64,000 nt of DNA. Origin: Pocillopora verrucosa (lineage: Eukaryota > Cnidaria > Anthozoa > Scleractinia > Pocilloporidae). Below the pieces are notes generated by a model, which worked only from the letters and a program-made list of their open reading frames with translations, had not been told where the DNA came from and did not search any database. The position numbers and the translations under genes are program-made. The DNA lies in NCBI RefSeq assembly GCF_036669915.1, contig NC_089321.1, positions 19,783,770 through 19,847,769 of the forward strand, written 5' to 3'. This document shows, piece after piece, positions 1 through 56,564 of this stretch; the stretch's first letter is position 1, and every line of letters begins with the position of its first letter.

Positions 1-383
1 CCAGCGTTTATAAACTCCAGCTGTTTGTTTGCGACAAGTCTCTTGACTTCCCTTTTCATAGCTTTATTTTGTTCGTTCCACCAGCGCTCGAAAAACGCGA
101 TTTCTACGTAGATAAATCGCTTGGTACTATCTGCAGTTAACTGGGGAATGACAGAGTCCAAAATGTACTGAACACCAGCGTGTTGAATGGAATTATTAGC
201 TCCGTAATAATACTCGTCTACCGTTTTCAACCAACCAACATCGTCGTGCGTGTGAGGAACGAGATGGACCTGCAGTTTATCTTCATCTGAATCTGGCCTT
301 TCAGAATCTTTAGATTTACATTCAAAGCCTGATCCAAGTGAAACAAATGCCAAAAAGTAGAGAAACGTTCTCATCACGGCCAT
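1..383 (-). CDS. MAN2B1: Lysosomal alpha-mannosidase, first coding part (runs off the left edge)
   Basis: Glycoside hydrolase family 38 enzyme that removes alpha-linked mannose from N-glycans in the lysosome. The frame opens at an ATG at 383 and stays open for 127 codons to the window edge. Residues 1-20 are a hydrophobic signal peptide. The zinc-site motif [19 protein letters not shown] starts at residue 43; by family knowledge H46 and D48 are two of the four zinc ligands. It is followed by [12 protein letters not shown], then [15 protein letters not shown] and LEFINAG, all in the order of the family and closest to the lysosomal MAN2B1 type rather than Golgi mannosidase II. The catalytic Asp and the rest of the protein lie outside the window. 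No intron is seen in this part. The next gene, FGF A, is 5.7 kb away on the opposite strand, so the two are divergent. Confidence 0.93.
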
Positions 384-615
384 TTCGTTTACGCCGTTTG
401 CAAACCTTCCGTGACACTACTGAACGCAAGTATGACGTCATCTCTAGTCACGGGACTAAGTAGTCACGCCATATGTCACGACGCAAACTTTTTGAAATTC
501 AAACGGAAACTTTAGAATAAAAATGTCTTGTATTTATGGCATTTTCCTCACTACTTTTCTTTTAACGTAGCTTGAAAGTGATTACTGTTTTACAGAATTA
601 ATTGAGCAAGATTTT

Positions 616-6129: not shown

Positions 6130-8420
6130 ATGATCAGGACATCTTTGGTAAGTCTTATACCGACTTTAGCTGCAAACATTCCTAAGTAAGTCTTCGATAA
6201 TACTTTTTGCATTTTTTAAAAAAATTTGACCCGCAGTCATGTTAGAACGAATCCGTTAAAGAGTTTGTTTGTTCTAGAACCAAAAACAAACGATTTACTT
6301 CTCACACTCTGAAGTTTATCAAATGAAGAAAAATTGCGATTGAATTCATTTAAAGATCAGTTATACAAATGACTTTAGTTTCAAAGTAACAGTTGTAGTA
6401 ACTGACGGCAAAAAACGTAGTTAGCATGTAAATGAATTATCAAACCCTAACCTATTGCCTGCGTCAGTTTTTTTGTCCTCTGTTCGTATACACCTGGCTA
6501 TCTTAGTGAATGACTAACTGGGTAACAGACTGACTCAGTTCCTCAATGCAGTACGTAAAGAAATCCGCATATAGTTTGAATTTTAAGATTTTATAAGTAA
6601 ATAATTTTTTCTTCCCTTATTTTCATTCTTTTGTCTCGTTCCTTCCTTGCTAAATTATTTAGCTCAGAATCTCATTCATAACTAATGACTTCCATTTTTT
6701 CACTAATCTTATTACTCCCTGACCACTCGAAAGCTTCCGTCATTAATTACTTAATAATAATTATTAACTTATTTATTCACCATTTATGTTTTCTGCCTGC
6801 AGTACACAATTCTTTTGGGAGTCTTCATTTTAAACCTCTGTCGTTCGGCAGTCATAAAGTCAACTGGACAGTCATCATCATCATCAGTTAACCAAAAGGG
6901 AACATGGAGTCTTAACCAAGTTCCCTTGTCCCGACAGCGACGAGATTCTCTTCTTAAAATCAATCCAGATATAAGAACTATTGCGGCGAATATCCCTTCC
7001 ATTCCGATGGCTGTTCGTTTGTTCTGGAAAACGCAGAAATTTCTGCAAATCAGTGACGATGGCGTAGTGAATGGTACCGCGTTTTGTTCAAGTAAATATG
7101 GTAAGACACGCAACATCTTCGAGTTGTTTTCATAACCGTGGCTCAATTATGAATCTGTTTTTCCTAACGCTTACTCATCTACATTCTCATTCCCATTTAT
7201 TTACACAATACTATTCGAAACTTAATTTTCTGGTTTTCTGGGAATTATACTTGTACTGTGAATGATGGCTTTAGAAATTAAATAAAAGGAAAAATTCAAA
7301 GACTTCGTTCAAATTTTCCAAGGTTTAGAAAAACGATTGTACTTTTGTTTGCAAAGAAATTAAAAATAGAGAAAAACGCAACCAATCTAAAAGTAACTGT
7401 TAAAAAGTGATTTTTCTTCAGTTCATTTGTTTCTAATACCAAATTTTGTTCAATGTTTAATGGCATTTCTAAAACGTACATTTAGAAGTGAAGAATTTCC
7501 CAGCGTACAACACGCAAACACTCTCATGTCAAGTATTTGTTCTTTGCTCCCTGGCCGTTATTTAATTTTTATAATCTTTCATTTTTAAGCCAATCTTGAG
7601 CTTGAGCCAATGGGAAGTGGATTTCAGCGTATTAAAGGAATCGAAACCGGTCGTTACGTTGCAATGAACAGTGGGGGTATTGTTTATTCAACGGTAAGTA
7701 AGGGGGTTCAACTTATAACGGACTATGTTATCAGGCACATTCGTTCGAGATTTTTCGAAATAAAATTGAGTGAGATTATCAAAAGACCTTAAGCTTTAAA
7801 AAAAAATTTTTTATTTTGATAAAGTCCCTTTCAGAACAAGACTTTCCACCAATCTCCCACGAGGGAAGGGGTAAGGGCACTTTTTCACGAAATTCATAAG
7901 TCAATGATCGCAAAATCGATGATGCCACATTTTTTCATTACCTTTTCTTACCGTGATATCTAAAAGGGAAAAAATCTCAAAGGAAGAGATTTAAAAATTT
8001 TGATAAAACAATATTTGACACGCAAATGAAATGTACAATAAATTATAACGGACTGTAAGCTGTTTTTGTGGGATGCCGAGTGATCATGGCGTTATGTGAT
8101 ATGTCGTGATGTAAGAAAGGCGAAGTGACTTGCTATGGAGTAACGTTATGTTACGTTACGTGACGTGATAATATGTAAAGTTTTGTGTTCTAATTCGACA
8201 TTTTTCTGTTTAACAGAATTCAACCAATGATGAAACAGTGTTTAAGCTAACAATGGAGAGCACATCATATCATACATTTGCGTCTGCGAAGTACTACAAA
8301 AAATCATTATACGACACATTCATATCCCTTGGACGCAATGGAAAAATCCGCAAAGGAAAAGACACCAAAGTCAGTCAAAATAAAGTAAAGTTTATCATCT
8401 ACACGGGAGACAGCTGTTGA
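6130..8420 (+). CDS. Fibroblast growth factor A (secreted), 4 coding exons
   Basis: Growth factor expected to bind FGF receptors with heparan sulfate. Exons: 6130-6147, 6803-7100, 7590-7693, 8217-8420; all introns are GT-AG and the sum is 624 nt, 207 residues. The 18-nt first exon (MIRTSL) plus the hydrophobic start of exon 2 (YTILLGVFILNLC) makes a signal peptide. A furin-type RQRR (residues 50-53) precedes the beta-trefoil core, which runs from VRLFWKTQKFLQISDDG through GRYVAMNSGG to YHTFASAKYYKK. The usual signature Cys is Thr147 (ETVF). A run of TCA codons encodes five Ser at 30-34. The TATA box at 6028 and the AATAAA near 8849 bracket the gene. The core and exon joins are firm; the tiny first exon is inferred from its ATG, its donor site and the signal peptide it completes. 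Vertebrate subfamily not assignable. Confidence 0.88.
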
Positions 8421-10878
8421 TCACCCTATTTTAAGCTTTAGATGTTGCTTAGCGACTCGGAATTTTTGAAAATATTCTCAATTCTCGAATTTAAATCCCA
8501 TCAAATGGGACGTAAAGTTTGGTAAATTTTTAGAGTTTAATGCCCTGCGGGCTGAAAGTAGCTTTCAGCATGAACCTTGAAGCAATGCAAAATTGTTGGA
8601 AGAGTAATATAATTCTACGGAATAACTCTCAAGCCATTTTAAAAGTGGTTTCTGATATTATTCCTTACAATAAGGACATTTTTAAGGATCCATTTATCAG
8701 TATTATTTATGTACACCACTAATTATTTTTTATCAGATTTACGAAGTGTGAAATCAGTGTTTTATATATTGATGTAAAATTAATTAATATAATCATCGCG
8801 TCTACATTTTATTTATGCAATGTAAAGCAACAAGGCAAAACAAACAAGAAATAAAAGCTTTCTTAATTTTACAAGAAAATGTCGTTTCTATGAAAACTAA
8901 ACGTATTTTTTCTGCAAACGCTTTGTAAAAGGGGATAAAGTTTATGCTCGAGCGAAGTGGCTCATGAGCCCGAGCTTTTCCCGGTTTCCAAAGCATGAAG
9001 CGACTAGGAATATCACCCCTCCCCCCTGGATAGGATGCCAGTCCATCTCAAGGTTGACAATTCGATTTCAAACAGCCACAACATACACCTTTTTTTGCGA
9101 ATAGTTTGGCGTTTTCAAGAGCGTCTTTCGAATGCGCATTGCATAACCAAAGTCAAAGCAACCACAATGACCAATCAGAACGGGGAAAAAGATCGTGGAA
9201 AGAAACTTCATTTGTTCACCTCATAAAACATCCATGAACGACAAAAGAAATATTTAAAAATTATTTTCAGGAAAAAAGAAACATTGACCCTATAATCAAC
9301 TTAAGAGAATTCCCTGTGGAACGAGACCCTACTCCATTAACTTGAACTTCGCTTTAGGAATTAAGCAGGAAATATGTTTAAAGCCATATTCGAAAAATTT
9401 AAAGCCCTCCTGGGTAATATTTACTGCATATGATTGTATGTTTGCCATTAAACATTGTATGAATTCTACAAAACATATTCTGCCTTTGTTTGTCATTGAG
9501 AATCCATGGGATGGGATTCTTAGCCCCAGGTTCAAAATAAACAGATTCCGGAAACAGGAAAAAATATTCAGCCGACTCACGCTATCCACGTTATTTTTAG
9601 ACATACCGAATAGGTTAGATTATCTACTCGCAAAAAATGCGAAAAGTCTTTTTAAGGCACATCCGCGGCCTATCAGTAAACCTATGTACCCCTTCCTAGG
9701 GGGAGGGAATACCTCAGTTTTTGCGCATCTTTAGCGGCCTTGTCACATATCTTTTTTCCCTCTTTGCCATTGTGTTCATCTAGTACTGTTAGTATCGAGA
9801 TTTCTGATTGTTCAGTTAGATACTGCATTTAGGCATGCCAATCATATTGTAGTCGGTCTAGAAAAGCAGTTATGTGTTACGTTCATCCCTTTTTTTTTAA
9901 TAATCAATAAACAATCAGCTTTCCTGTAAAGTCCTTATCATCTTTATCTTTCAATTTCGAACAAAGTCGAAATGGTAACATTTTGGATCTTGAGATCCTC
10001 TTGCGTTCATAGCGGTTCTGTGTCAGTAACAACAGTAAAGAACTTTCTAATTATCGATATTCGCTCATGTTTTCTTTTCTGCCTTCTATTTTCGACATCA
10101 GCAGCTTCGTTTTGCCAAAACTATCACTAGCTATAATCAATGTTGAAAACATCATCTCCTAAAATATCTGAAAATTATTGTTTTGTACGGAACCATGCAG
10201 TTACCTGCTGCAAACACCGAAATAGAGATTACAGAATACAGGAAAAAACAGACATTTTAAACCTGAAGTGATTCTTTTTTAATGCGATTTAAGTCTCCTG
10301 CATAGATTGTTAATTACATTTTGGTTACTAGCAACAACACAAAACAAATGCTTTTTTTCCTAGTTATCGTGTGGAAAATGCATCAAATTGCAATGAAGAT
10401 GTTTACCGTTTGAATCCTAGCAGTGTTTGGTGTTCCCGAAATTTTCAGCGTGTATGGATTTCAATAACGATGTCATAAATTTCAAATTCAGACACTGAAA
10501 ACTTCAAATCGAAATATTATGATTCTAATTTAGCCCACGAAGGAATTTTCTCATTAGAGCAGTTTTTTCTTCCCTTTGGCTAAAGTCATAGAGAAAATAT
10601 CATAAACAAGGCAGCAATCCTGCCCAATTTTGGCCATAGCTATGAGATATTAATTGTTTTGGCGCAAAAGTCAAATCAAATGACCGAGTGCAGTCGAGCT
10701 ATTAGAGGCAACCAATCGTGTTAAGTGTAGTGTGGGTTTTCTCCTTCAATTAAGGAACATATCGAGTCAAAACACATTCTTGATGTTTTTATACTGCCGT
10801 CTGATGATTTTCTAGGCTTCGGGGGTGGTGGCATCTCATTGAAATAAGAACTAAGTTGTTATCTTCCCGGCAGAAAAA
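8421..10878. other. Region between FGF A and FGF B, no supported gene
   Basis: Contains the presumed 3' UTR of FGF A (AATAAA near 8849). Open frames of 91-130 codons overlap on both strands at 9329-9734, but none shows a recognisable domain or splice context. Nothing else identified. Confidence 0.45.
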
Positions 10879-10995
10879 TATAAGATGCTATATTTAATCT
10901 TCGCATGAAAAGCAACGCCTTCAGTTGCTCGCGCATCAGCGTTCAAAGAGGAGAGCTTCTTAACTGCGGGAGCTGTTATTAACTCCGAACAAAAG
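10879..10995 (+). promoter_or_regulatory. Possible FGF B promoter and 5' leader exon
   Basis: TATAAG at 10879-10884 is followed, about 110 bases on, by an exon-like end AAAAG with the donor GTGAGC (exon end 10995). A strong acceptor (TTGTTCTTGCTAG) sits at 14025, 14 bases before the FGF B start codon. A leader exon joined to 14026 is therefore possible, giving a 3-kb leader intron. Suggestive only. Confidence 0.25.
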
Positions 10996-13900
10996 GTGAG
11001 CAAATTTGAACTAAGCTAAAATTTTTTGGATAAAATACATTTCTTTAGTTTAAATCTATTTGATTCTATTTTTTTTTTTTTTACTTTTTACAAGGATTCG
11101 AATTTGGAGCCCACTGCCCTGTTTTAATGCAAGCGGCGTGAACTATTTGATTTTTCTCCAGACTAGTTCAACAGTTTTAGCTTTTGTGTAATTCTGTCTT
11201 TTCGAAGTAAAAATGGTGAACCAGAACTCTCGAGATCTGAAGAAAATTGGTGTTTAATGTTTATTGTCAAACAGAATAGATTAAAAATTCTGAAGCTGAT
11301 TAGCATGGACGAATTTTTTTCGTACTTCATAAAGAAAAATTCACAACAAAAGGAAAAATAATGATAAAAAATTATAGAAAATTAAAGCGCCCAGTTTTCG
11401 TTTTGTCACCATCGATTCAACCAAGAATTAAAGGCAAAAAATCAATCGCACTTCAATTAAAGATCTACGTTTTTAAGTTAACGAGAAACCCCATATTAAT
11501 AAGTTTAAAATCCTATGCAAGTCTGAGAAACGCAGCATTCGATCTCTCAATTGGAGATTGGAGTTGTTTTGCGACATCTTATCTGATCCAGTTGATAAAA
11601 AAAGCAACAGCAGCGACAATAACAGCTTCTTCTGACAATAAGATATAAATCCTTTCTGATGCAAAACCATACCGCGCAATAAGTTTTTCTATAACTCCGA
11701 TTATAATCACATGTCATCTTGGTGAGGACGTTTGTAGCCGGTGAATTCTTTTGAAGTCTAATTCTTGGTCAGCTTCATCCCTGCGGTCAATTAATCTCAT
11801 CTCTACCTTTATTGGAAGAAGGAAAATGGAGAGAAAAGAAAAATTAAAAACGAAAAAAGGAAGAACTGGAGAGAGAATAATTATGTGAAAGAAGAAATGA
11901 AGAAATATTGAATGCTTTTGCCTTCATGAGTTCACCCTAGACGGTTTACCATCGCACTCCGTGAGATATTTATCATTGTCTACGAAATTTTGCAGATTTA
12001 AAACTAACTGAGATTTTCAGCGATCGAGACTAAAGGGCATCGAGAAATCCGGTCAGAAATTGGGCAATCTACGGGGTAGACTTCAGAGCTCTGTTGCTCC
12101 CAAATAACAGAACGACTGTATGCAGGTTTTTTCACCCCGGACGGCAAAATTCAAATTTGATCGGTCGGATTCCGCGGACCAAAAAAATTTACATTTACCA
12201 GAGAAAAATTGTCTATATTTGTTCACGTCAACGTATTACATGTACCGTTCAAAACCAGTTCAACTCTGATTTTAAATTTTTACGGATAAGAAAAATTTTG
12301 AAACATGACAGTTAGGATGATTTGCTGAAACGCAACATGAACTCGCGTGGTTGATGTTAAAAAAGAGTTGCTCTTACTGAGGTAAGCTATTCGTCATTTC
12401 TTCTGTCAAGTGATGTCTTATAGAATGATGTCTGATTTCAAGGGCCAGTTTATGTTCTAAGGTCTCACTGCTAATGAAAAAATCTAATCGTAGGTGACGT
12501 CCAAAAAAATGCCAACATTCTAAAATCCTTCGGTGAATTATGGGTCATTTCAAGCTTTTTAATTTATTCAAGATCAACATTTAGAATGATAAGTTGGACG
12601 CCGTTTCGCAAAGTTGCGCGCTAACTTAAACGTTTTGGAACAAATGGTCATTTAGATGTTCACCTAGAAAATAATGAAAAATTCCGCGTCATTGTATTTC
12701 TTCAAGCAATACTAACCAAATAAAAGTCGTTTAAATATCATTTTTGATTCAAAGTGTTCATGGCTGATTTAGACACCCTAAGCCTCACGGTCAGATTTAT
12801 CAGAGGTGACTTCTTTAATCTTTATCAAAATCACACACTGAAACCAATCCATATCGCTTTTCCTTCGACTGAACAAATTCACAATAATTGATGGCTGTAA
12901 GTTTTTCACCTTTCTCAGCAAAAGAAAAAAAAATCCATAACAGGTATGCAGCTGTTTCGGGTTATTGTGAAAAGAGAACCGTATTCCTACCAAGAAATTT
13001 TCAGTTCATGGTTGGAATCTAACATAAAGCGGTTAAAAGATACTTTTTATTGTTCTATTTTCGGTATCCTTTTTCTTTTTCTTTTTAAGTAGAGGAGCGT
13101 GCATTTGCTCTCACTAAAACAGTACGTGATGAGTGTGAGAGGATTGACTTTTAATCAATAGCTCTCTCCGGAATAACGTGTTCAGCTTCAACCACTTACA
13201 AACGTCACCACAACTTACATGTTCAGACTCACGTCCACAATTTATTTCCCAGCAATTAATTATTTGTCCTCTAGGAGTGTTGGGTCAGGCAATTCTGGTA
13301 GAAGAGATTAATTTTCTTAAAAGCGTCTGGTTAAGGTATAGCGGGGTAATTGCTCCATATCGCCCTACAATAGTAAGAGTTTTACTTAAGTGCATTTCGT
13401 GGTTATTGATATATTGTAGATGAGAACGGATATAAAATAGATTGAAACAAAAGAAGTCGACAGCTCTAAAAGACTGCCACAACTTAATTGTTCACTTTCC
13501 AAATTTGAGTAAAGAATTCGTCGGCAATTAAAACTTAAGCTGCTAAAAAAGATCTCCCATTATTTCAATCGAAATTCTCAACCTCATATACCATTGCATG
13601 GATAAGATTCTTCGCCAAACAAACTGTATTTCACATTTATAAAATAAATCTTGTTAATGGTTCTGAAGAAATAAGTACATAATGGATTTGAAACATAAAT
13701 CAAATGGTACAAAAGTGCTTTTCAGCATTAAATGAGGAACAAACGAGGGCTCACTTTTCTTTGACATTTGGACTTAATGACATCGCGAAGAGGTTTTCAA
13801 CTCACTTATAAATGCAATCATTGAAATGCAGATTAATGAAAGTGCAGTCAAAATTGCAGACAGTCAATTGTGTTTTAAAGTACCCACCACTCACCCGTAT

Positions 13901-14038
13901 CTTCATGAACGTCATGCATTAACTGTCGCATCACTTTACGTCAAGGGGCCTTCCGGTTGAACGCAAATGTACCCAACCTGAACTGATCATGAAAGTTTAA
14001 GTGATGCAATGCTTGTTCTTGCTAGATAAACGACTAAA

Positions 14039-17000
14039 ATGGCGCTTTTACTGGAACAAGAAGTATTTTCCATGGATGCAAAGCTACTTAAAGCACAGAT
14101 AAACGAAATCACGGCCTGTCGAGCGAAAGAGTGGGTCCGAACGAAGTCAGCACTCCTACAGTTAAAAGCCGTGCAATGGTCTGCGGCTAAGATAAACCTG
14201 AATATATTTTCCTTGAGAGATTTCGGTGTCACAGACGAGGAAAGCAGTATTACACAAGTCAAGTTATTTAGTAAAAATAATTGGTTTCTTCGACTACAAG
14301 ATGACGGTAACGTCAGTGGAACAAGAGAGCAGAACAATGATGAAGGTATAGTCAAATGGATTTGTGTATTTTCGCGCGCACGTGGCATATCACAGCATGT
14401 GCATTATCGAACTGCATTTAAATCTAAAGGAAGTTTTAAATTCGAGCATTATAGATAAATTTCAGTGTAGTTTTCGAATTTATCGGAATAAATTCTACCG
14501 AAATAGCCATACTTAGTTAAATAAGAAACGAAAAGATGCATGGAACCCAACTTAATAATACGAAATAAACTGTAGACGATAAAACCGAACAAATGTGTCA
14601 TATCAAATCTTCGATACAACGGAGAGAAAAAAATGAAAGACTTTCCATTATGAATCAAAGAATGGAAAACAATCATCGTATCAAGATTTTTATTTCTTAA
14701 TGCCGAGCATAAGCTATACACACAAAGTTGTAATTATTTCAAGCTTGTGTGGCGGATGAAAATGATTGATTCAGTAATTTGACGCTTCAAAAGAAGAGAT
14801 ATGGACTGAATATCAGAATCTAAATTGTTGGATCATTATTATGACACCTCAAGGCGACTGTGTTTATTATCAAGCAAGCATTGAAAAATGAAAAATGAAA
14901 TATCTGCTTCAGAGAGGACTTATTCTGTGTCTGTTCGGGAAGCCACAAATTAATAAATGTACGCTCTAGTAGACAACATGAGCGTCAACTATTGTCTAGT
15001 TATTATAAAGACCATCTAGAATATCATTTCAGTAGAAAATTTAACAGAAAAAAACAATCTTGTTAATGGAGATTCAAAATGATTCCTTGGCTTTTTAAGA
15101 TGAAAGGAAACTGGAAAGATTAACAAGAAATCATATTTCAAATTCCTGAATAAGAGAACTCCTATATACAGCTAAGTTATTCATACTCACGTATTTTCCG
15201 TTACAGTTTCCTGTTTAAAAAAACCCTCAACTAATCTTCCTATGTCCGCTTTGAGTTCATCAACTTCCTCAGATCATCACAAAAAAAGTGAAAGAGGATA
15301 TTTCTCTAAAAGAGGCCAGGAGGGAAGACGAGGAACCTTTGACCAAAATACTCATGGTTGTTATTCGAATGAAAATAGCTCGCCAACATTCCCTAAGGAA
15401 TGCACACGTATTACGCATTGAGACCGACGCCCCTTTTAGACAATTTTCCACTTATATTTCGGAACCTCAAATTCGAGTACATGCAGTACACACTCAGTCA
15501 AGCTTTCATCAAAGTTGAATCTCTTACTTCTTCTGAAAGCTATCATGAAAATTTGTTATCGCAGAAAAATGTAAAATTTGCTCTCAGTCCGGGCAAGCGT
15601 TTTCCAGAGAAGTAGAATTCGGCTATTTCGCTTACTCGTTTTGTGGAGATGTCTGTCTTCCTTAGTAAAAAGCTTGAGAACGAGTTTAATATCGCACGTG
15701 CAATGCTACTTTACTGCAGACTCGTACCCAGTCGGTCTCTGAGTTAGAAAACCAAAGAATTGATAGCCATTAGGTACGAGTTTCATTGTATCCCTTATTA
15801 ATCACTGTTCATTTGATTGAGAGTTATTCAAAATCTATCACAGAGAAAACGAACTTGTTTAATCACCGCAACGTGAATACATGGAAAAAGTTGAAAAAGC
15901 ATTGAAAAGAGACTAACTTCATCTTAAAGTATGAAACCTGTTTAAAGAAACTGTGCTCACTATCACTTGAACAAAGAAGAGTTTTAGTTGATGACACTTT
16001 CCTTTACGAAGCGCTGAATGGCATGATTAATGGTGATATTCAACCTTATATTGATTTTAATTCAGTACATGACCGTTACCCCTTAGGCATAGCGATAACT
16101 TAACTCTGAAAAAGAAATACGCTAAAACTAACGTACTAAAATATTCATTGATAGAATTGTAAATAGATGGAATGAACAACTTATGGAATCTCGCTTTGAA
16201 ACTAATAAAAGAACATTTAGGTAGAAAGTCAGAAAATTTCTATTGTTATAGTCTTATTTAAGTGTGGGAATGAGGAGGTGTGTTAATGTTATTAATTTCA
16301 CTTAATTGCCTTTTTGGTGGTCTGTTTCTGAAAGGGGTCAAGGACTCCTTTACAGATCTTTCATATGGCCTGTTTTATTTTATTATTTGTCTTTATTCTT
16401 TACTTTTTTATAGTAGCTAGTCGCCATCAAATCGTAATAAATAATGTCCGAGCCTCAAATAGTTTAATATCATTTCAGCTTAACTTATGGGCATCAGTGC
16501 GATGTTATTTGTTGTCGAGCGATCTTTAGCAGACAATCAGTCGAATGGATACATTTTGAGCTTAGACATAGTGAATCAGCGGAAGTTGGAAAGGCGTTAC
16601 TTAGAGAAAGTCCAATTCATTTTAAAAATGGTTCGTTAGGTTTTCAGAGAACAAAGGCTTTTTGTGTTTATGAAAGTCAGTTGCCACAATAAAACTTAAA
16701 ATCCACGCAAATTAGAAAGTTCCAGAAGTATATATTCTAGCCCAGTATTCTGAAGAATTTGTTGCATCTTACATGAATATTTCGAAGGAAAAGTTAATCA
16801 CGCTGCTCCACAGCTACATTTGTTTCGAAGCATCTTCTGTCTAAAGCAGGTAAATGATTGAAGGTTTACCTACTGAGTTGTTATGAAGCCTTACGTGACG
16901 ATTCCAGTGCATTTCGTCTGACAATAATGAAGCCACAAAAATTTTAGTAACTAAGGAGAAAATTTTCTGACTTCAGATGAAGTAAATGTAGATAATGAAA

Positions 17001-20000
17001 ATACCACCGCTAGAAAGGAGAAATTTAGTGTTAATACCGTTACAAAAGCGTCTAACTGTACTGCTCACAAAATAAAGATGGCGGCGGCCCGCTTTCCTCA
17101 AGTCCGAAACCTGACACTTCTTGACTGACTACTTTTGATCACTGAATCAGCTGGTAGAAGTCGAACTTCGTTTAGTAAAAGAACTCAAAATTTGCGGGAA
17201 TTTTACGTTAATATACGATGCACTGTTTCAAATTGAACGATTTAAAGCTATAGGCCGGAACCAGAGAGTTCCAATAATATTATAGGTACTGCTTCGTTAG
17301 GGATTTAACTTCGTTAGGGAGAAGATATGCCCCTAACTTGAACATCTCGACTAAAGAAATCCAAGGCAATATGTTTAATGTTGCTGACTAGGAAACACTG
17401 CATAGCTTTGAAAGCTTCTTAGGCAGCTCAATTTCGTTTGGTTGAGCTGTGATTTCATTTAACTCGAAAGCGCCGTGTGTTCAAATATACACCTAATATG
17501 TACCACAGCCGCTTCTGCCTTGATACCAGCCTAAATTAAAGATACACGACTGCGTTTTCGCAAACCCTTTGTTATATGTGCTAACTGTTGAATGAGTCTT
17601 GTAATTTATATTCTTTCATCGTTTACAGTCAATCTGCAGTTGCAGTCGATTGGGAAAGGATTGATTCAGATTTACAGCCCTGCTGTAGGACGATATCTGG
17701 CAATGGATAGCAATGGACGACTGTTTTCAATGGTAAGCTTAATACATTTTTCAATTTAGTAACCATTCTCCAACTCATTACTGAATTTTGGTAGAAGTAT
17801 CAGACCTTGTACCTCCTACTAAGCGTTTTCACTGGAGGCTGTTCAACTTTCCCAGTAACTACTTACTTCTTGGAGACAATTTTATGATGTTTATGCCACG
17901 ACTTTGTCAAATTAATTGCGTGCAGACATTAAGGTCCCCCAATACATTTGTATGGAACAAATCTCATTGACAGCCGTGTACATTTTAAACTTGCACGTAT
18001 ACTTTGACGAATGTACAATAGTGCCGCACGAACTCTACCACAAACTGACTACATAGCACAGCCCATTACAGGCCAGCCCTGACAAGAAACAGAGTATCAG
18101 GAATTATTGAACTAAGGCCATATTTTTTTACTGGTCTGATTGCTGTATGCCAGGCTCCGAAAGAAAAAGAAAACAATGCACCTCTTCTTCGAATACCTGA
18201 TCTTTACCATAATTATAAAAGACCAAAGATGAAGTTTCTTCATATAATAATTTTAATGACTGTCGATGATTGTTCCAAAGAAAATTTCGATATTGCTGAT
18301 TAACAGCGTTGACTTGAAAAAGTCACAATTTCTATCGGGGTATATCAACGTTACAAGATGACTACTTGGTACCAATCGGTCAATGACCCTCTCTAATCGC
18401 TATAGAAATTCTCCTGACAAAGCAAATATACTTTTACAGCACACAACAGGACCATTTTAGAGAGGGAAGTAGTTTTTAATCTTAAAGAAACCCAAGTATC
18501 AGTTTATGAGCGATCGTTGGGTTGGAAATTAGCGCGATGTGATCCTTAAATAACAACTTATCGGATTCCGTTACTTGCACAATAGATAGATTCTACAATT
18601 TTTTCCATAAAATAACCTTTTAACTCATATGATATCAGTATAATCATTTAGCATTTTAGAATGTCCTCGACTCTTCGGTTGAGGCATTTCGTTAATTCTC
18701 GGTTGATTGTTTGTTGTTGTGAAACGTGATGGAATAAAATTCAGAAATAAGATGGCTGAAGTTGTCCAAGTTTCCTCTCCTAGGAGATAGCTTTGGTCTA
18801 CTGTTGGTTTTTGCTGAATAATTTTGGTGATTGAAGTATTTTGTCACCGTCACAGCAAACCCAGATAAACAATTCATCTATAACCTTTAGGAATGCACAT
18901 CTGAGATCTGACATCCACGTGTCTTTTTCTTTCCTACTGCTTCTTTCGACTTAAACAACTAAGGACCTAAATAAGGTGGAAAGTAATAATGAAGGAAGAC
19001 GAAAATAATGACAATTCCTTCTTTAAAACCAAATATGTAACTGTCTAAAATCTTAAAAAAGCAGAGGAATATGGCGTTTGACTCGTCTAACACTGGATTG
19101 AGTATGGTATGGTTATTATGTTTCATTATCTTTTCATATTAAATGCACAAGGATCATTTAATATCAACAGAAAAATTGCCAAATTTCTCCTATGTTGGGT
19201 ACAATTTCTGGCTACTGAAACTGCACGTAACATCACTGAATCGAGTGGGACTCAGCGCAGTAAGACACGAGACGCACTGGGAGTTGACTTTCTGGAGAAG
19301 ATTAACTGGACATTTTTCTGTTTAGATATTGCCTAAGTTCACAAACAGCATATTACACCTATTTTAGAGCTCTACGATATTTGATTTTCGATTATGACTT
19401 GACAAAAAAAAAAATGTTTAAATCATTTTCTCACTGTGACCATTTTAAGTAATAACTAAGAAAATATAATTCTTAACTGCTGCGATGATGCTCACCGTCA
19501 CTAAAAAGCGACGTCGTGAAATGATAATCAAAAATCATTTCTAAATAGTTACTTTGCAGAGCAAGTTTTTATGGTCGAATAAAACCTTAATGATATGTAA
19601 ATTATCACATTTTCCTTCATGATGATTAATATTGGTATGCCGGTAGACAAAAGCCGCGATATTAATTCTTCTTTCAACGTAATGAACTTTATATCATGAT
19701 TTTGTTTTTGACATCAAGCATATGTATATATTTATAGCGAACAATATATTAACTAAAGTTAACCGAACTGACAAGCGAGACCTGTGTGCTCATGCAAGTA
19801 ATTTTCCAATATAACTGACAAAATACGTCAGGGTCAAGGACTCGAACTGCTTCAGATGATTACTGTAAATTTTATAGCGCAAAAAAAACAGAATAACATG
19901 GTACACTTATGACCTGCCAAAAATATATTATCTTGCGCGGTCGGAGAGTCGCCTTTTCAAAATGACTCAATCCGAAAGCAACCAAATGCATTACATACTT

Positions 20001-20908
20001 TCAGGCAATGATGTGCATTTGAGTTTGACGCGAGTTTCAAATCCTGTCCGTCTTTCATAACATCAAGTTTCACGTAGAAGTCACAATTAAATTCTCGAAA
20101 AATCCTTAGATTTCAGCGAATTCCGTGTCAAATTCCTTTGAAAATATTTCACCAATTTTACAATTAAATCTATTTAAATGAAATGAGATATAAATTAAAT
20201 TGCTATTCCAAGAGTAACTTAACGATAATTAAAGTCAGTTTGCAATTTTCGTACTATGATTATTTGCTATGTTTAACTTATGTTTTATTCTGTTCAGAAT
20301 TGAAACTGATACGGCTTGCCGAATCATATCATATCATTGAAATAGATAGTTTATAAAGTCTTTCTACTGCTTCAATAAAAAGGAAACAACTTTGTTAGAA
20401 TGGATGCCATTTTGATGAATAAACCAAACGAATTTCTTTTCATGGCATCTGAGCCCTATTTTTATCGAATGACTATTTTAGTTTGTTACTGGACCAATAT
20501 GACCTTATTCAGGCTCAAAACATGTTCAAAATATTTAAATTATTCAATTTCGTGTTATTTTCCTTCCTCTGTTTCGCTTCTGGTAACACACGACGGAATG
20601 TTAAATGAAGAATGCTCTTGAATTGGAATTGAGATCAATCTAAGCACATCACATAAACAGAACTGAGTAAGATTTTCTTCAAATTTTTCAACGTCGACCC
20701 TAATTTTGTATACTATGCCATACACTATTATTGTAACGCTTCAAATGATCCCTCTGCGAGAAAAAACAATAATAGAAAACAAGTGAGACGATGACTGGTA
20801 TGATTTAGCCGATGTTCGTTATAGGGATTGAAATAGATAAAGTCAGAGTAAGTAAATATAGGGTTAGATATATTATAAATATATATATTATAAATATATA
20901 CATATATA

Positions 20909-20982
<74 letters not shown>

Positions 20983-21589
20983 TATCAACATATCAGGTTT
21001 TATTCCCATATTTTTTAGTTTTGGGATTGAACATAGGATGGGAGGGGGGAGTCCTTTGCATTTTTAGAGGGAGGGGTTTGGAAACGGATCCAGAAGTCCA
21101 AAGGCCAAAATTTGGTCGTAATGCAAAGCTAATAAATAGACAGATTTTCTTGGATGACACCTCGGTTAGTTTCTTTGCTGTTAAGAAGCCCAGTTTCGAT
21201 TTTTAATTAAATAAGGCTTCGAGGAATTATTATAAAGTTTGGGGTTTTATTCTTCAAAGCCTTGCCATGGTGTCTATCATTCAAAGCTGAAGTTTTAAAA
21301 TATCAAAATTGGGCTATTCCAATCCGGCTTTGTCAACGAAAACACTATCCCTGTCCAATAAAATAGGGATTTGCACTTATACAAGTTTCTTTACTCACAG
21401 AAAAGCAAGACAGACAGCACAATTTTCAAACACGTTCAAGGAATCAACGGTTTTCACACGTTCTCCTCGCACAAGTACTACAGAGACACAGCTCATGACA
21501 TGTACATAGCCTTGAGGAAGGATGGTCTTCCAAGGAAAGGAAACAAGGCTTGTTCACTTCATAAAGGTTCTCAGTTCCTGATCATCTGA
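14039..21589 (+). CDS. Fibroblast growth factor B, no signal peptide, 3 coding exons
   Basis: Exons: 14039-14345, 17629-17732, 21401-21589; GT-AG introns in phases 1 and 0; 600 nt, 199 residues. The ATG has a good context (AAAATGG) and an in-frame TAA lies four codons upstream. The core starts near residue 72 (ITQVKLFSKNNWFLRLQDDG), continues through NLQLQSIGKGLIQIYS and GRYLAMDSNG, and ends with GFHTFSSHKYYRD and LRKDGLPRKG. The first 70 residues are charged and mixed, without a hydrophobic signal, so it may be exported unconventionally, like FGF1/2-type factors, or act inside the cell; this is inference. The signature Cys is replaced by Thr144 (STIF). The second intron (3.7 kb) holds a long TA microsatellite. 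AATAAA occurs at 21967. Same exon plan as its neighbours A and C, so a local duplicate. Confidence 0.88.
20868..20980. repeat. TA-rich microsatellite
   Basis: About 110 bases of almost pure TA with TATG/TGTG interruptions, in the second intron of FGF B. It creates spurious open frames coding for Tyr-Ile runs. Confidence 0.95.
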
Positions 21590-24500
21590 ACCATTGATAC
21601 CCTGTACATCTTGGCACTTATTTAAAACAAATGTCGAGTAATAGTTATTATGGAAATTCCAAGACATAAACAAACAGCCTACAGTTCTACATGACACACA
21701 AAAAAACTACGGAGTCTCCTAAGGCAAAATGAGATAAATACTTGCTGACATTAATACTGAGTGAAATGACGATTTTACACTCAGTTATTTATTGTTATCT
21801 AAGAAAACCATATTCAAGTTAAGACGAACAAAGAGAAAACAAGAATACTTATTTCAAATCCAGTTTGAATTTATGAGTGAGGAACTAAGATGTGTTCACA
21901 GCGAAATTGCAGAAAAAGAAAAATTTAATGAATTATTTACTAATTTTAGAGTTCCTCTCATTTGAAAATAAACCTTATCATATTGTGAACTTAACAAATG
22001 CTTGAAAATAAATGGTATCTAGTTGTCGTCATTGAGAGATCTTGAGAGATATTTAGAGAAATTAGCCCCCACCAAACTTTACACTCGTCGCCAAATACTG
22101 ACTGCCCCGAACAGACCACATTGATATAGGCTTCAGTACTGACAGCATTTCTAGAAATTACATTTAACACCGCTAACAAACTTGATCCATTTTCAGCCTA
22201 AAAAAAAAAGGTTAGGAATTGCATTGGCATAGAATTTGCTGAAGCCAAAGAGTCGTGCCTCATCGGGTGAATTTACTTTCGATACGTATGATTTTCTGGG
22301 CTAGGGATTTAAATACAGATTTTCAGGCACAAGTAGCTTTTGCAAATTTTAAGTTAAAAAATGTTTTTCAATCTCAGTTTTGATTAACTCTTTTGGTATA
22401 AGGTTTGGCTGTATAACAACTACAAGCTATAAGTCTGAGCAAAACTCGGACTGACCTCTAGTATTTCATCCAAAGAAGTTCCAAGCGTTCGCTTTCAGCG
22501 AACTATTTCTCGCAATTAATTTTCGAAATGAATTAACTTTTAGGCAAAAATTTATTGGCTATACTCTGTTGAAATACTCACCAAGAAGACGCAGTTTGTC
22601 TCGCTTAAGTCTTCAAGCTGTCGTAATCTGAAATTTATCTGAGAAACTCCAAATATTTATGACTTGAAAAGCTGAAAAACGTAATTTGATAGCAAGAAGT
22701 CATAAGCCTTCCGTCGCTCTTCTTTTTCTACTAGTACGTGTTGTCTAAGAAAGAGCGGGAAAAAAGGGAACGCAGTACTTCACGGACAGAATGTGAGGCT
22801 GCTTCAGCCTTTTCGAATGCCCATAACACTCTGTGCGCCTTGTTTCGACTCCGAATTGATCTTAGACTTCGTGAGGATACGAAAGCTAGCTCGGAGAAAT
22901 ATGTTTTAACATATATCGTCTGGGTTTTAACGTTTAAACTGTAACAATATCAGAAATTTGCGATGAATAAACCGAAGCCTGAGTGTGCTTTGTTTTCCAT
23001 CCATTAACATTGCCTAGCTCTTATGATAATGACGATGATGCTGACGAAATTTAAGACACTCAGATTCACTAATTACAATCTACCTATCAATTCTCAATTT
23101 CGTTTGCATGTTATCTTAACTCATCACGTAACTTCTCTTAGGTTTTACTAAGTTAACAGAACCTACTTTGAGGATATTTTAACAAAATATTGCAAAAGTT
23201 GAACAGTTCAATAAGTGTGTTTTCTATCGCGCTAGAAAGATACAAAGCAAAACCTAATGTGATTACATGCACGTAATTTTTTCTGGCGCTTGCGTGCCAT
23301 TACCCAGATTTTTTAGTATAGCAATTATGAAAAGTTTACATATAACGATATTCCTAAGAAAACCACTCAAAGCTAGTGCCTCCCGTAGCGTCCAAGTGTT
23401 TCTAAACAAAACGGTTCAATCTTTACTTTTTAAAATAGCATTTCTTCACTTCATTTTTTCATCGCAATGAGCATGTAGCACCCTACAGGCGCAGAATGTA
23501 ATTTACACGTTCAACTTATGAAAAAAGGTTCACAATTGTATTGAATGTCCAAATTTTTAATGGGTAATAGTTACCTCATATTCATATCATTGCATTTTAC
23601 TATCATCATCACAGCTGATAAAAAATTCCTTTTACTTCACCATTAAACTAATGTTTGTCTCCTAATGAGTGAGAAGAGTGCTAAACTAAATAGTTTAAGA
23701 GTACCTCTTCCGCGTCTAATGGATTTTAAACACTTTCTTCATTCTTTACTTAAGGCGAACATGACAGAGCATTCTTTAATGTCTTTCTTTAAGAGACACT
23801 TGTTCAAGTTAACGAGTTCCTCTTCGAAATTTGCTTTTTTTACTCATGCTAAATCTCACGCGATTCTTTTGCATAAATCTGGGCACTTATATCTTGAAAG
23901 ATTTGTGGTTTTGGATCTTGGTGAGCACAATTACGATGACCGTTTCGTGTTCATGACCTGAGGAAGACTGTTGGGGGTGCAGTCGAAACGGCACCATCCA
24001 CATCGTAACTGACTACATCCACGAACTTGCTTTGTGAATTTCCGCGTGCATCCCATCAGTGTAGAAATTTCTAAACACAGTTACTTCAGTATCAAACTAA
24101 GTTTCCTTCTTGATAAATTTTCTTGTATGCAAAACGTTCATTCAAAACGTTAATTGGTTGAGCAAAGCAGAGCGTTAATGAAAAAAATTTTCACTTGTAT
24201 CTCGTCAGTAGACTGGAGGCAAAATCGTACTAAGTTGAGAATTTTCTGTAAGCGGTAAATAAACATTTTCCTGCATGTTAATGCAACTAAGCTTTTATTC
24301 TTAGTTTTTGTTTATGAAGAACAAAAACTGGCCGTGAATAGTTTGCACTCGTACATTGTTTGTATGAGCAGAAGATTAATGTTTTTATTTTTGACATCAA
24401 GTGGTTATCTGCATTTTGCGCGTATTTAAGTTTCACATTGGGAGTGAAAAAAAGTCGTCGGATTAAGATCATAAAATTATATAAAGGAAGAGAGCATAAG

Positions 24501-25706
24501 AGTTTCAATTTATAACAACGAAAAAAAAACCTTTTAGAAGGACATTATGCTGACGTCATCACGTTTTTGCTTCCGTCGCTGACACAGTATGTCATTAAGG
24601 TCCCTTAAGACATTGATAAGAGTCAGGAAAATCGAAGTTATCGATTATTTAGGTACCTGGGCATTCATTGCCGGCCAGAAGTGCCCGTTTCAAATCGTTA
24701 AAATACACAGTAAGTCTAGAACAACATGTTTCAGCTTTCATACACTAAGTTTATTTCCATTGGAAAATCCTAACTAGCATTACAAAGATACATATAACAA
24801 TATTAATTCTATAAACATTCATTAGGCTGTTATGGATTTTTGTCTGAACTTTAAAAAACTTTATTGTAACCCAAATAGAGCTATTAGCGTTACGTTGGGC
24901 AAGATAAGGAGAAATTAAAGAATTTATATTTAATCTGTTACAAAAACTTAAGAGCTTGAAGTTTGTGCTGGAGTTTTTTTGTAGTCACAGTGCCATTCCC
25001 TGGGAATCAAGGATATTGCTTCCATTCTGGAATACTGTTTAATGAGAGGGTCTTAAAAAGTGAAGAACAGACAGATGGGGTTATGACGGGCCCTCTCCGA
25101 GCTGTGGTGAATTATCATGCTACAGTGGCCGTCAGAAGAATCATATATATATACCATCCACGTTTTCAACAAGTTAGGGGGAATGAAAAAGTAAGTCGAA
25201 TTTCAAAGAAGGTAACCAGGGTCTTTCCTTGCAAACAATCCTTGTTCATAGCTACCTTTGATTTTTTTCTCTGGAATTTTTAAAAAGTCCCCGAGGCAGG
25301 AAAATATGATCAGTTTTACCTCGAAACGTTTTATTTTTATGTTGTATCAAAGAGATCTAGGGATTTATAGAATGACAACCATAACATGTTTGTTGGAAAG
25401 AACTCGTTATTCGTAAAGAACCCGTACTGTTTAACAGTTACGCCGAGCCACTAAAGGCCACAATATTCGCCAAGCGGTACTCTATGATCGAACAACTTTA
25501 TTTATAAATAACCTCTTTTTCTCATTTAATTCTTAAATTCGCTGTTGCGACAATATATAAATAGATAGCTTATCTTACTTACTTTCGTAAAAAATAAATA
25601 TCTAAATATTTAAATTTTCAACATAAATCTTCACTTGGTACTCGTTCTGAAGACCTGCTTTCAGACGAAATAAATATTTTGAAGATATTTTGACTGTCAG
25701 CAGTAT
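21590..25706. other. Region between FGF B and FGF C (converging genes)
   Basis: Holds the presumed 3' ends of FGF B and FGF C. At 23660-24000 there is a retroelement-like piece ending in the ribozyme-like motif at 23958. A pair of frames with good splice sites at 24589-24701 and 24991-25190 is discussed under findings. No other gene seen. Confidence 0.45.
23958..23992 (+). other. Hammerhead-like hairpin relic of a retroelement
   Basis: CTGAGGA is followed by a hairpin with the perfect 5-bp stem GACTG/CAGTC, then GAAAC. These are the core boxes of a hammerhead ribozyme, in order. The expected cleavage triplet GTC after GAAAC is GGC here, so activity is unlikely. Compare the better copy at 43347. 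Confidence 0.3.
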
Positions 25707-27519
25707 TTAGCTTATTTCCCTGCTTTCAATCACTGAAATAAGCGTAGTCTTGTTGTGTCTCGTAGTCCTTTTGCCATTTTTCATATGACCGTTCTTTCTC
25801 ATGGACAAAAACAGGTATTTTCTTGTCTTATCATTCGCATGGAAGTGATGGTGAGAGGCAAACGTTTGGAAGCCATTTGCTTCATGCGTTTGTCGAAATA
25901 CCGTTTCCCTTGTGGGTTCCTTCTGTAGATATAAACAAACAACACTTTATTAGGAATGAAGATATTGGTAAACAGCAACCAAATAACTCTTGAGCCTTCA
26001 CTTCGAAGTTCACTTAAAGGAATGGCTGTGTATTAATATAACTTAGATTTTAAGCAGTAATTTGTAATGCGGCTTGGTGAAAATTGCGCAAAGTCTATTA
26101 ATTTTGTTTTGACACGAGTTTTCATTAATTTTAGGTCTCGCTGCACTGAACACTTATTTCAATCAAGCCAGATCGATTGTTCTTTTGATGACCGCAGGAG
26201 AATATTAAACGTGGGAACAGTCAAATCTCCAAAGCAAATATTCGCCCGAGAAAGAATACCGTCACATACACACGAATTGCTGAATAAAATAAATCTCAGG
26301 ACGATCAAAAATCTTTGGCCGCGAAATGCACAAATCCAGTAGACCAAGACAACTAGGAAAGATATAGCTTACTGAAAGTTTTTATGAAGGTGCATTTGAA
26401 AAGCAAGGACATAAAGAAGCCATATTCTTCGCTTTGTCGGTGAACATTCGATTTAATATTCTTGTAACAAAGTGGTGTATGATCACACATCATTAGAAAT
26501 GCTTCCACGTATTAGAGGTGGCAATAACAGAGAGACCTTGGACTGGGCTAATTTAGTCACTCCTTCAAAACAATCGACTTTTTCACTTAAGCATTGTTGC
26601 CACTTAAAACACTATCCCCTAAGTCTGATTTCAAGTGCCCGGTAACTGTCGAATCCAGCAAAAGAACATCTTAATTTCTTATAAAATTTTGCCAGAAAAT
26701 CACTTGACGGCCGAAGGAAAGTGCCCAGTTGTAAGCGTGTAACTTATTTCAATGTGACACAGTTTATCCTTTTTCCCAAGTGAGACAAATGAATCGTAAA
26801 TAGTTGTGTTAACTCACCGTTGTGTAAACTTTTCCCGATGACTGCATAGCGACATACAGACAAGTTTGCTTGCTAAAGATCCGAACCAAGCTGCTTCCAA
26901 CAGACTGAAGTTGGAGCTCAACTGCAAAAATAAGTAATGAGCGTGTTAAGTAGCAAATAAACAATTCAGCTGGTTTTCTTTCATTGGAGAGCTAGCTAGG
27001 AAGAAAAATGAAACTAATTTAAGTAAAAGGAAAACATTTCGGACCGGTTCTTTGGACTTGTCATTTCTTTTCGATTATCCTTGGATGCTAATTGGGTCCA
27101 GCCACAGCGTCTTAACATTCAACAAAAGACATACTTGAATCATAAAAGCTTACTAACTTTGGACTACTTGTATGCAACTCTACAAGAGAGACATACAAAA
27201 CTACTGACAAAGCAATATTCATTAATCGCTAATACAAGGTGTGTATCTGTACTTACTGTCGCGGCTGCGCGCATCTGAAGGTCCTTTTATATTACCATCT
27301 TGTGTAACAGCTAAGACCCTCCCTTTTTGTACCAAAAGACACGTCTTAAACAGATGTATGTCCGTATTGAATTGCGGTTTGATTGCACACTGGGAACTGG
27401 CCCTCAAAGCTCTCCTTTCCCGTCGTAGACTATTTCCTTCGAATCCTTTTTTGCAAGGGAAGAGCTGGTGTGATACTCAACAAGCAGAAAGCAAACAGGA
27501 CAAATATAGCCTGAAACAT
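25707..27519 (-). CDS. Fibroblast growth factor C, 3 exons, frame shift in exon 1
   Basis: Exons (minus): 27519-27257, 26921-26818 (104 nt), 25922-25707; donors and acceptors are GT-AG, with the same phases as FGF A and B. Core: HLFKTCLLVQKGRVLAVTQDG, then ELQLQSVGSSLVRIFS and YVAMQSSGKVYTT, then GFQTFASHHHFH and SMRKNGHMKNGKR. The signature Cys is Thr (ETVF). A RERR processing motif precedes the core. An ATG at 27519 opens a clear signal peptide (MFQAIFVLFAFCLLSITPA), but that frame ends at TAG 27432-27430. The core frame joins it only if the run of six A (27447-27452 on plus, as T) were one shorter; with that single change the ATG-to-donor length would be in the expected phase 1. So this is a recent pseudogene, a null allele or a sequencing error. 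An alternative start at 27685 is considered under rejected items. Confidence 0.8.
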
Positions 27520-30500
27520 CAAGGATATTTAGTTGAAAAAAAGTCCCAATTCTCTTTAGTTCCTGCGTTAATAGCCACTGCCTCGAGCGACGTTTCGTGA
27601 TTTCTCCCCTTGTCCCACTATCAATATTTTTCGAGTCTAATCTTCCAAACAATAAACACAAAATACAGACAACTACTTGAACCATTGTTACTGGTCACAA
27701 CTCAGGTACGCTTTTTTTTGGTCGCTATCTATTCTTGTATCATTTTGCCCCTTCACCAGCCACCATCGTTTCGCTGCGCTATCAGCAAGATGCTCACAAT
27801 CATAAAATCAAGAACTACGATATGGTGAGTAGATGAGTACCCCTACTTTTGATATTGCGATTAGAAAATTTACGTGGATAAATTCCTGCCTTTAATCAGA
27901 AAGTTTCCAGATTCTTCTAGGCAAAAATAGCTATAACCGATTTTCCACTTTTCACATTGATGCTCCCATACAATTTCCATGTTTAACTTCATTCCCGATT
28001 CATGCCCGTTATATTTTAAAGCTTCAGGGCTCCCTTACATCACAACCGAATCCCAAAAATAGCCATTGGAGCAATTTTAAGGACTACAAGCCAAAGCGTT
28101 TTGAATTGGCTTGAAACACTAGTACTGGAAATCCCATACTTGTTACCTCACAACTCCAACCTTTATTATGTCAGACGATAACATCACGTTGTAGTATTCT
28201 TCGACATGAAATATGCCATGCCCCCAAACCAGAACGCCCTTCAGTCAGAGTGTGTCTATATGCATCTAATATTGCTTTTTACTACCACAAAAAGCACCCC
28301 TACTTAAACACTGAGCGAAGTGTTATCAACTTTCCTTTTTCAGCGAAAAGTTGCTGATTCGCAACTTAATTGAAAATTTGTCAACATCAACAAAATCTCC
28401 TCAAATCCGCGTATTTTTTAATAAAAATTCGCTGGCAAAACTATATAAGCGCTGAAACACATTGATTTGAAAACAAAAAATAAATAATCAAATTGATATA
28501 AAATTAAGTCTTCTTGATCTACCAACGTCTTGGTGGGAGCAGAATTTGATCGCTAAATATCTACGCTCTCGGAAAAATCTATGAAAATTCTTCACCTGTA
28601 ATAGATCCATTCACAATCATTTTATTCTTCGTCATAACTGATGATAAGTTGGGATTTTAGAGAGGCAATCGACGTAGTTTGTTCAAACTGCTAAAACCGA
28701 TTTTCCCGCCGCTTTCAGCTGCCCACGGAATCGCTTCTCACGTGTTGATGTCGTTATTAATAATATTCTAAACTGCTTCAATGCCCCTTACTATTTTTTT
28801 TGCGGGTTTCCGGGCAACCATCGATGTAACCAAAGACCGAGTTTTACGTAATGTTCAACGATCATGGAAATTTTCCGCCATGTTGTAATGTATATGGAAT
28901 GTCCTTGGTGATCTTAGATTTTTTAACTTTCTGCCAAGGAAAACCACCCAAACCACAAAGAGATGTCGAAAATGTAACACCCGCCGTACACCTCCTGCTT
29001 CACACTTCCACGCATTTCTGCTATAAAGCTCCAGCTCTTTTATAGCCCAACGCGATCTCCAAGTTCTACAAATGGACAAAAACTACCAGTCCCCTGGGAA
29101 ATTTCCTTGAACATATCAATCACAGTGGTTTGTCGCTTCACAATAACTTAACCGTTTTGAAGGCCAGCGAGTGTTGGTTTTACGTTGTACGATTAGGTTG
29201 CTAAAAGTAGACAGAGCTTCGTATTTTCCTCTGACAATATCAATTCAGATGAAAAGGGTCACTGGTATTGAATGGAAGGCTCTGACGAGTCAAAATTTGA
29301 GCCCCGAACCATTATGACATCATCTTTGAGGTTTGGAGGTATTTCAATGCAAAACAACTAGTCATTAGTTTTGTACACATTTGCTCCAAATTGCACTGAT
29401 CACGCCTCTTCTACACAAACCCATTTGGCTTTTCTCACGTGCAGCATATTCGGAAATATCCTTGTTTGTGGATCCCGTACCTAGTGACGAAGTATTTACG
29501 GCGTTGTTGAGCCGAGATGATATTAGGAGTTCTAGCTTGCCTGAAAAGGAATCTTTGTTGTCAGAGATTCAACGCGCAATTAGCAATTACAACTAAGGGA
29601 ACGACAAAAATTCTTGTTAAACGAAGTCCGTAAAGCTCGTTAAATTAATCGCCCACTGTCGCGGTTTTTGCGTGAGTTTTTGTTCTTCTTCCTCGGCGCT
29701 GAAACGCGACAAGGGTTTTCATTCTGCTTGCTGTGAGAAATTTCCTCATTGAACTAGGCCTGACTTCACTGCACGTGAAACGGAGCTTTGATTTCAAATC
29801 ATTTCTGGATTTCCGAGCGCGTTATATGAAAGAATAGACTTGTGTATCTTTAACTAATCCAGAGCTGAACAAGCTGCTTTTGTTATTAACGAGATAAATG
29901 CGTCTTAAGTCTTGCGCGCCATTTCTGTCTATTCACTTCGGTTGTCGAAAAATATGCACATAATAGAAGGCCCATTGCAATAAACACCGAACAGCCCCTC
30001 AAAATTGATTAGTAACTCTGACGTGCTCGTTTACGAAAAATTTCAGCTTGCGCTTAAGGCCAACCCATTAAATGGGTTTCAACTTGTCGTATAATTTCCA
30101 GCTCTAAAACATTGTATCATATAGCATAGTTCCGCTTCTCAACCTACACCTAGGCTAAGGAAGTTAGACGTACTTTAATCCTTCCTATGGAAATCGCGGT
30201 TTCCCTAAAACGAAAATATCGTTCAAGAATTGTGGCTCAGGACTTCACGGTGTGTCCGTCACAATGCTGATAACAAAACGACAAAAGACGAAACCGATTG
30301 TCGGTACGCTGCAGTTAAAACGAATATAAACATTTGATCTGTACTAAAACTTTTTCCGGTATCATACAATAAGCGAATATCACTACGCTTCAATTGAATC
30401 TCTGCATAGTTCACATTTTATCTGTCTCTTCTCTCTCTTGTTTCGTTTGACTAGAAATTGCCATTTCGGATAAATCAAGTAGAAGACTCATTTGAATTTA

Positions 30501-33170: not shown

Positions 33171-33204
<34 letters not shown>

Positions 33205-56410: not shown

Positions 56411-56525
56411 CTTCATGTTAGGTGTAACCATGCATCTGATAAGGCAGGACATCGGCCATTTCATTCCATGACCCATGGTCGAAGAAAAAGTCGGGTCACT
56501 CCTAGATGTAGCGTGGGTAAATAAA

Positions 56526-56562: not shown

Positions 56563-56564
56563 AC

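Follow-up and report, generated by a model that had tools for sequence, protein, structure and literature searches.

The stretch of Pocillopora verrucosa DNA analysed here, called the window below, is 64,000 nucleotides long and lies at positions 19783770-19847769 of contig C10 in a genome assembly of 353 Mb in 52 contigs. It carries three genes for fibroblast growth factors (FGFs), named FGF-A, FGF-B and FGF-C (A, B and C), which probably form an old cluster of anthozoan FGF paralogues, one of several FGF clusters in this genome. The locus is of an ordinary kind; two points stand out, namely that B has no visible signal peptide and that exon 2 of C is broken. Gene models were built from splice sites, translation and Pfam for A and B, and from frame-aware alignment to the relatives P0006 and P0007, translation and tblastn for C, as follows.

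6130..8420, plus strand: FGF-A, coding exons 6130-6147, 6803-7100, 7590-7693 (104 nt) and 8217-8420, 207 aa.
14039..21589, plus strand: FGF-B, coding exons 14039-14345, 17629-17732 (104 nt) and 21401-21589, 199 aa.
25707..28610, minus strand: FGF-C, exons 28610-28596, 27510-27257 (broken frame), 26921-26818 and 25922-25707.

An earlier note on this DNA had proposed three FGF genes, two on the plus strand followed by one on the minus strand, all with one core plan, and both statements were borne out. The Pfam FGF profile (PF00167) matches A with E = 7.4e-29, B with 8e-29 and exon 4 of C alone with 2.6e-9, a rough single-frame reading of C reaching 6.5e-23. Splice sites and translation show that in each gene the middle exon is exactly 104 nt long, preceded by an exon ending in phase 1 and followed by a last exon starting in phase 0, with GT..AG at the core splice sites. 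Homologue searches with A, C and B returned 5, 12 and 20 proteins respectively (37 in total), the relatives of A including sequences from Montipora and Oculina, and those of C coming from Pocillopora damicornis, Desmophyllum and Oculina. Scans of genome-contig and viral-contig collections with the C-type protein P0006 found no relative. When these 37 relatives were compared with the window by tblastn (E <= 1e-3), no match was found beyond A, B, C and a stretch just upstream of B, and the window matches of a genome-wide Pfam FGF search were confined to the same places. Among solved structures, the best matches were a designed consensus FGF followed by FGF1 for A or FGF2 for B, and FGF1 forms and FGF9 for C.

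The exon limits of A and B could be compared with two near-identical proteins. P0001, a full-length relative 98% identical to A, comes from a contig of 1077 bp, whereas the gene itself spans 2291 bp. P0018, 98% identical to B, comes from a contig of 1456 bp, compared with a gene of 7551 bp. From these lengths we infer that both contigs are transcripts or look like them, and because P0001 and P0018 run over the same junctions, the exon limits of A and B are supported. A long AT microsatellite was seen at 20868-20985, within intron 2 of FGF-B.

The earlier note had taken shared structure together with location as the sign of a tandem duplication. The shared location is real. As to the structure, the Pfam search of the whole genome yielded 36 FGF matches, of which 27 were to last exons (3 in the window and 24 elsewhere) and 9 to middle exons. 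At 14 of the 24 other last-exon loci, all on other contigs, there was a middle exon of 104 nt with matching phase; none was found at the remaining 10 in the stretches fetched around each. A middle exon was counted when it measured exactly 104 nt between AG and GT, was open in the right phase and scored as an FGF middle exon (10-51 bits at the 14 loci). The same length is found in two mammalian genes: in elephant FGF5, exon 1 contributes 364 coding bp (3 x 121 + 1, hence phase 1) and exon 2 measures 104 bp (excerpt of PMC2754481), and mouse FGF2 has 104 bp of coding sequence in its exon 2 (excerpt of PMC11496435). The plan of phase 1, 104 nt and phase 0 is ancestral, or at least very widespread, in FGFs. 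Because it is general, it is no sign of a tandem duplication of A, B and C, and as evidence for one we rejected it. The more general caution is that an ancestral exon plan of this kind is no proof of recent duplication.

The genome holds other FGF clusters. On contig C5, at 9315088-9718910, eight last-exon matches lie on one strand within 404 kb; several are incomplete and one has an internal stop, so that the array looks like one that is both expanding and decaying. On the same contig two almost identical FGF genes, at 26768354 and 26796098, are 28 kb apart and probably represent a recent duplication. Three last-exon matches lie within 40 kb at 16.728-16.768 Mb of contig C1, and an FGF trio in plus, minus, plus order occupies 12.6 kb of contig C9 (17259709-17272265). 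One member of this trio groups with FgfA1 of the coral Astrangia poculata (99/99), an FGF with a hydrophobic N-terminus. FGF signalling is known to be important in corals: knockdown of FgfA1 removes the apical tuft in Astrangia (excerpt of PMC12085026). Astrangia FgfA1 is none of the three genes studied here, its core being 27-33% identical to theirs. For Nematostella, 13 (excerpt of PMC3420111) or 15 (excerpt of PMC10781443) FGF ligands have been reported, including FgfA1 and FgfA2; these have anthozoan FGF cores, as do A, B and C, and FgfA1 and FgfA2 belong to an eight-gene group without certain subfamily assignment (excerpt of PMC10781443). Neither excerpt mentions how the Nematostella genes are arranged. 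FGF clusters bear on the expansion of FGFs in corals, with 27 last-exon matches found here compared with 13-15 ligands in Nematostella. Among the papers listed by a literature search, judged by titles and the starts of abstracts, none dealt with clustering of FGF genes in coral genomes, which is not proof of absence. Coral FGF8 is the subject of PMC8764167, and the main text of PMC10236652, on tandem duplications in corals, contains neither 'FGF' nor 'fibroblast growth'.

At the N-termini of A and C, the earlier exon models had each omitted a brief first exon, also coding, the intron after it lying within the signal peptide. In A a hydrophobic signal peptide is split by the phase-0 intron 1 after codon 6 and is followed by a basic RQRR and then the FGF core; in C the split, again by a phase-0 intron, comes after codon 5. 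We take RQRR in A and RRERR in C, both before the core, to resemble proprotein cleavage sites. Hydrophobicity was scored as the best 10-residue Kyte-Doolittle mean in the first 40 residues. A signal-type stretch was present in 4 of 4 A-type proteins and in 7 of 7 C-type relatives, the window C being broken in that very exon. Scores ranged from 2.40 to 3.28 for the A and C types as against 0.26 to 1.26 for the B type, and no signal peptide was found by hydrophobicity in B or its nine full-length relatives (0/10). Nine further B-type N-terminal pieces were scored, eight of which gave 0.11-1.23. No short signal-peptide exon like those of A and C was seen for B, and an in-frame stop stands just upstream of the B ATG in the window. 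By alignment of the starts, B may in fact begin further on, at the ATG at 14072, close to the start of some relatives. B probably lacks the small signal-peptide exon present in A and C, and a simple interpretation is that it has lost it.

FGF1 and FGF2 leave the cell without a signal peptide. They are among the best solved-structure matches, B resembles them in showing no signal peptide, and the 104-bp exon 2 of mouse FGF2 adds to the likeness. The difference is that the coral FGFs around B include its signal-bearing relatives A and C. B would either be exported in the absence of a signal, like FGF1 and FGF2, or act intracellularly. A, and C where it is intact, would be exported by the normal route, as predicted from the signal-type stretch, then trimmed at the basic site, to act as putative short-range ligands on FGF receptors. 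If linked signal-bearing and signal-less FGFs are truly present, the locus would offer a compact system for the evolution of leaderless FGFs. A more ambitious scenario, which we regard as unlikely, is that B is a coral-wide leaderless FGF that arose among the signal-bearing FGFs of the cluster by loss of the signal exon, independently of vertebrate FGF1/2 and FGF11-14. Corals would then possess, in a much enlarged repertoire, linked FGFs of which some are secreted and others stay inside the cell or leave it by an unconventional route, the neighbouring secreted C having just been lost in this Pocillopora-like coral.

The kinship of the three genes was analysed with two trees. The small one had 29 rows, namely 17 of the 37 fetched proteins, A and B of the window, Astrangia FgfA1 and nine human FGFs; the window C was left out and the root was arbitrary. 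A, B and C each formed a clade with other corals (100/99, 98/99 and 100/100), the three were joined at 91/75, coral and human rows were separated at 100/97, and human FGF1/2 adjoined the coral rows at 90/83. The larger tree, of 41 rows, added 19 other FGF genes of the same genome. There the A, B and C clades remained (100/99, 99/99 and 98/94), and an unlinked gene at 1258 kb of contig C13 came beside C (89/79). B, C and this gene were grouped at 82/90, and B and C probably share a closer ancestor. This tree was weakly resolved: human FGF1/2 stood elsewhere, coral and human rows interleaved, and several genes of contigs C1 and C7 came next to human FGF8 (93/81, 93/92).

Any duplication among the three is old. 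Core identities, with P0006 standing for C, are 37.6% between A and B, 35.2% between A and C and 33.6% between B and C, and because these barely exceed the values with human FGF1 and FGF2, an old origin is indicated. The A and C clades each span several named coral genera, and the B clade reaches down to about 70% identity, so that the duplications predate the split of the sampled corals. Two Oculina genes of A and C type are numbered ACROYT_G024385 and ACROYT_G024387, and for each of them, as for a second A-type protein, P0004, the longest contig listed is 33,308,145 bp. The gene numbers and this shared value suggest that the linkage of A and C is kept in Oculina. Tandem duplication is frequent in corals, accounting for almost a third of the predicted genes in two genomes (excerpt of PMC10236652). 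An old tandem duplication has also been proposed for chordate FGF3 and FGF4/5/6 (excerpt of PMC3420111), which are likewise clustered paralogues but of a different subfamily.

Several observations weigh against an old cluster of three paralogues as described above. The grouping of A, B and C, at 91/75 in the small tree, is absent from the best larger tree, where the deep forks are weak and A joins B, C and the contig C13 gene only at 40/38. The identity of A, B and C (as P0006) to human FGF1 or FGF2, 28.3-36.7%, is barely below their mutual figures. AlphaFold models have a mean pLDDT of 36.9 (P0018) and 46.6 (P0006), too poor for the fold to be judged. Finally, P0032, the ninth B-type piece, extends further upstream, and this extension includes a fairly hydrophobic stretch (2.18); the counterpart of the extension in the window is interrupted by stops. 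A joint tandem origin of A, B and C, although possible, is less supported than the small tree implied. The alternative is that the three are old FGF types kept or brought together, and not local duplicates of one another. Their low mutual identity (33.6-37.6%), the unlinked gene beside C, the loose tie of A to B and C, and an exon plan common to 14 of the 24 other loci all speak in its favour. However, when A, B and C were constrained to group together, the cost was 4.8 log units and the constraint was not rejected (p-AU 0.28). The contig C13 gene has a long branch (1.27) and its middle exon is missing from the alignment, so that its placement is unsure, and the adjacency of A and C seems to be kept in Oculina. 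We had considered this alternative improbable, and after the larger tree we still doubt it, though less strongly. The tree of cores suggested by the earlier note was run with 19 other FGFs of the same genome included: A, B and C do not fall in clearly unrelated subfamilies, and their joint group is not in the best tree. The old cluster of paralogues stays our preferred interpretation of the locus.

FGF-C was reconstructed by comparison with P0006, the C-type protein of Pocillopora damicornis, which served as the reference for its lesions. Its exons, all on the minus strand, are the following.

28596..28610, minus strand: exon 1, codes MDLLQ as in P0006, then GT.
27257..27510, minus strand: exon 2; compared with P0006, its frame is shifted at about 27450, 27401, 27339 and 27319, and position 27348 holds an in-frame stop.
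26818..26921, minus strand: middle exon, 104 nt, intact by alignment to P0006 and translation.
25707..25922, minus strand: last exon, intact, with stop, by alignment to P0006 and the Pfam FGF match (2.6e-9).

The earlier note had placed the limit of C at 27519. The ATG found there overlaps the acceptor of exon 2, and the matching MDLLQ exon lies 1.1 kb beyond, at 28610-28596, as the only hit when the minus strand from 27512 to 36000 was searched with a fuzzy pattern; since that exon fits P0006, the start at 27519 was rejected. Nor does C read as an intact protein. Exons 1, 3 and 4 and the splice sites look intact, and in the middle exon 33 of 34 residues are the same as in P0006, the one mismatch coming from the split first codon, translated in the absence of the base upstream of it. 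In exon 2, the frame is lost four times. Alignment to P0007 gives the same lesions apart from a slightly different position of the second shift, and the altered region is conserved among the coral relatives of C. As sequenced here, C is predicted to yield no secreted FGF. The great divergence of the N-termini noted earlier holds for B, where no signal peptide is seen, and falls in part for C: the frame read at the time is open but partly out of register, so that part of the claimed divergence is not real. More generally, a frame-shifted exon can mimic rapid protein divergence.

The damage is confined to one exon. At positions where P0006 and P0007 agree, window-only changes affect 13 of 70 in exon 2 (9 substitutions and 4 shifts), compared with 0 of 90 in exons 3-4 (Fisher p = 1.1e-5). 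This contrast speaks against a slow, relaxed decay of the whole gene. It is fitted best by a local fault in the sequence and next by a very recent local lesion, the first being somewhat more likely.

A fault of assembly or sequencing in the exon 2 patch, the animal itself having an intact C, has in our estimate an even chance of being the explanation. In its favour, indels and substitutions crowd into about 190 bp and the flanking exons are clean, and nanopore reads underlie some Pocillopora assemblies, not necessarily this one (excerpt of PMC10236652). Yet no such patch was seen in A and B, which provide the only other exons compared with close relatives, the patch has an unremarkable GC content of 44%, the contiguity of the assembly is high, and no cause confined to one exon was identified.

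The second explanation, for which we see a reasonable but lesser chance, is a real and recent death of FGF-C in this species, the frame of exon 2 having been lost and the rest having had no time to decay. Four frame shifts plus an in-frame stop are consistent with it, and the open reading frames of A and B are clean. A search of the same genome with P0006 gave 4 matches, all at the FGF-C locus, and no intact copy was present in the assembly among the best 11 candidates scored. Within the window, tblastn with the 37 proteins revealed no second intact C exon 2. On the other side, all counted window-only changes fall in exon 2, whereas decay of a whole gene should be even, and the splice sites look intact. 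A functional C with a reshaped N-terminal part is very improbable. On this view one frame would stay open from a point ahead of the basic site through the rest of exon 2, the later shifts cancelling out. The frame of the earlier reader is indeed open over 27476-27257 and still scores as FGF, but the codons of exon 2 for the signal peptide lie in a different frame, no single frame spans the exon as it stands, and the altered region is conserved in coral relatives.

The genes around the cluster, and those further to the right, are the following.

3..416, running off the window, minus strand: left neighbour, a gene for a GH38 alpha-mannosidase, represented by its 5′ end (Pfam Glyco_hydro_38N 8.6e-26).
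33409-33654, minus strand: Kazal-type protease-inhibitor exon with a possible hydrophobic leader, between FGF-C and the calpain-7-like gene.
45500..54684, limits approximate, minus strand: right neighbour, calpain-7-like gene (Pfam MIT 1.5e-7 at 54418-54684; DCSF near 49301 and HAYA near 45702 by motif scan).
62529-63416, minus strand: open frame of a rhodopsin-type G protein-coupled receptor (GPCR), right of the calpain-7-like gene.

The name calpain-7 is our presumption, from the general features of that protein. Both neighbours of the mannosidase-FGF-calpain-7 block proposed earlier are thus present, with the qualification that the Kazal-domain exon intervenes between FGF-C and calpain-7. 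Synteny elsewhere was followed in Oculina only, through the gene numbers and contig value given above, and there the linkage of A and C seems to be kept.

Some minor features of the window were also recorded. A shorter stretch at 56464-56877, 6 kb from the GPCR frame, has similar wording (KTQQ.P, NKALKT / GKALKT) and no Pfam match, and looks like a decayed paralogue of that frame. The reading frames at 60326-60655 and 43840-44097 are, by eye, presumably pieces of Penelope-type retroelements. A short interstitial telomere-type repeat of three CCCTAA units lies at 4500-4517, and an open frame at 571-999 contains an internal duplication (YRRGHGFKSR.GLNF twice) and is perhaps part of a local repeat.

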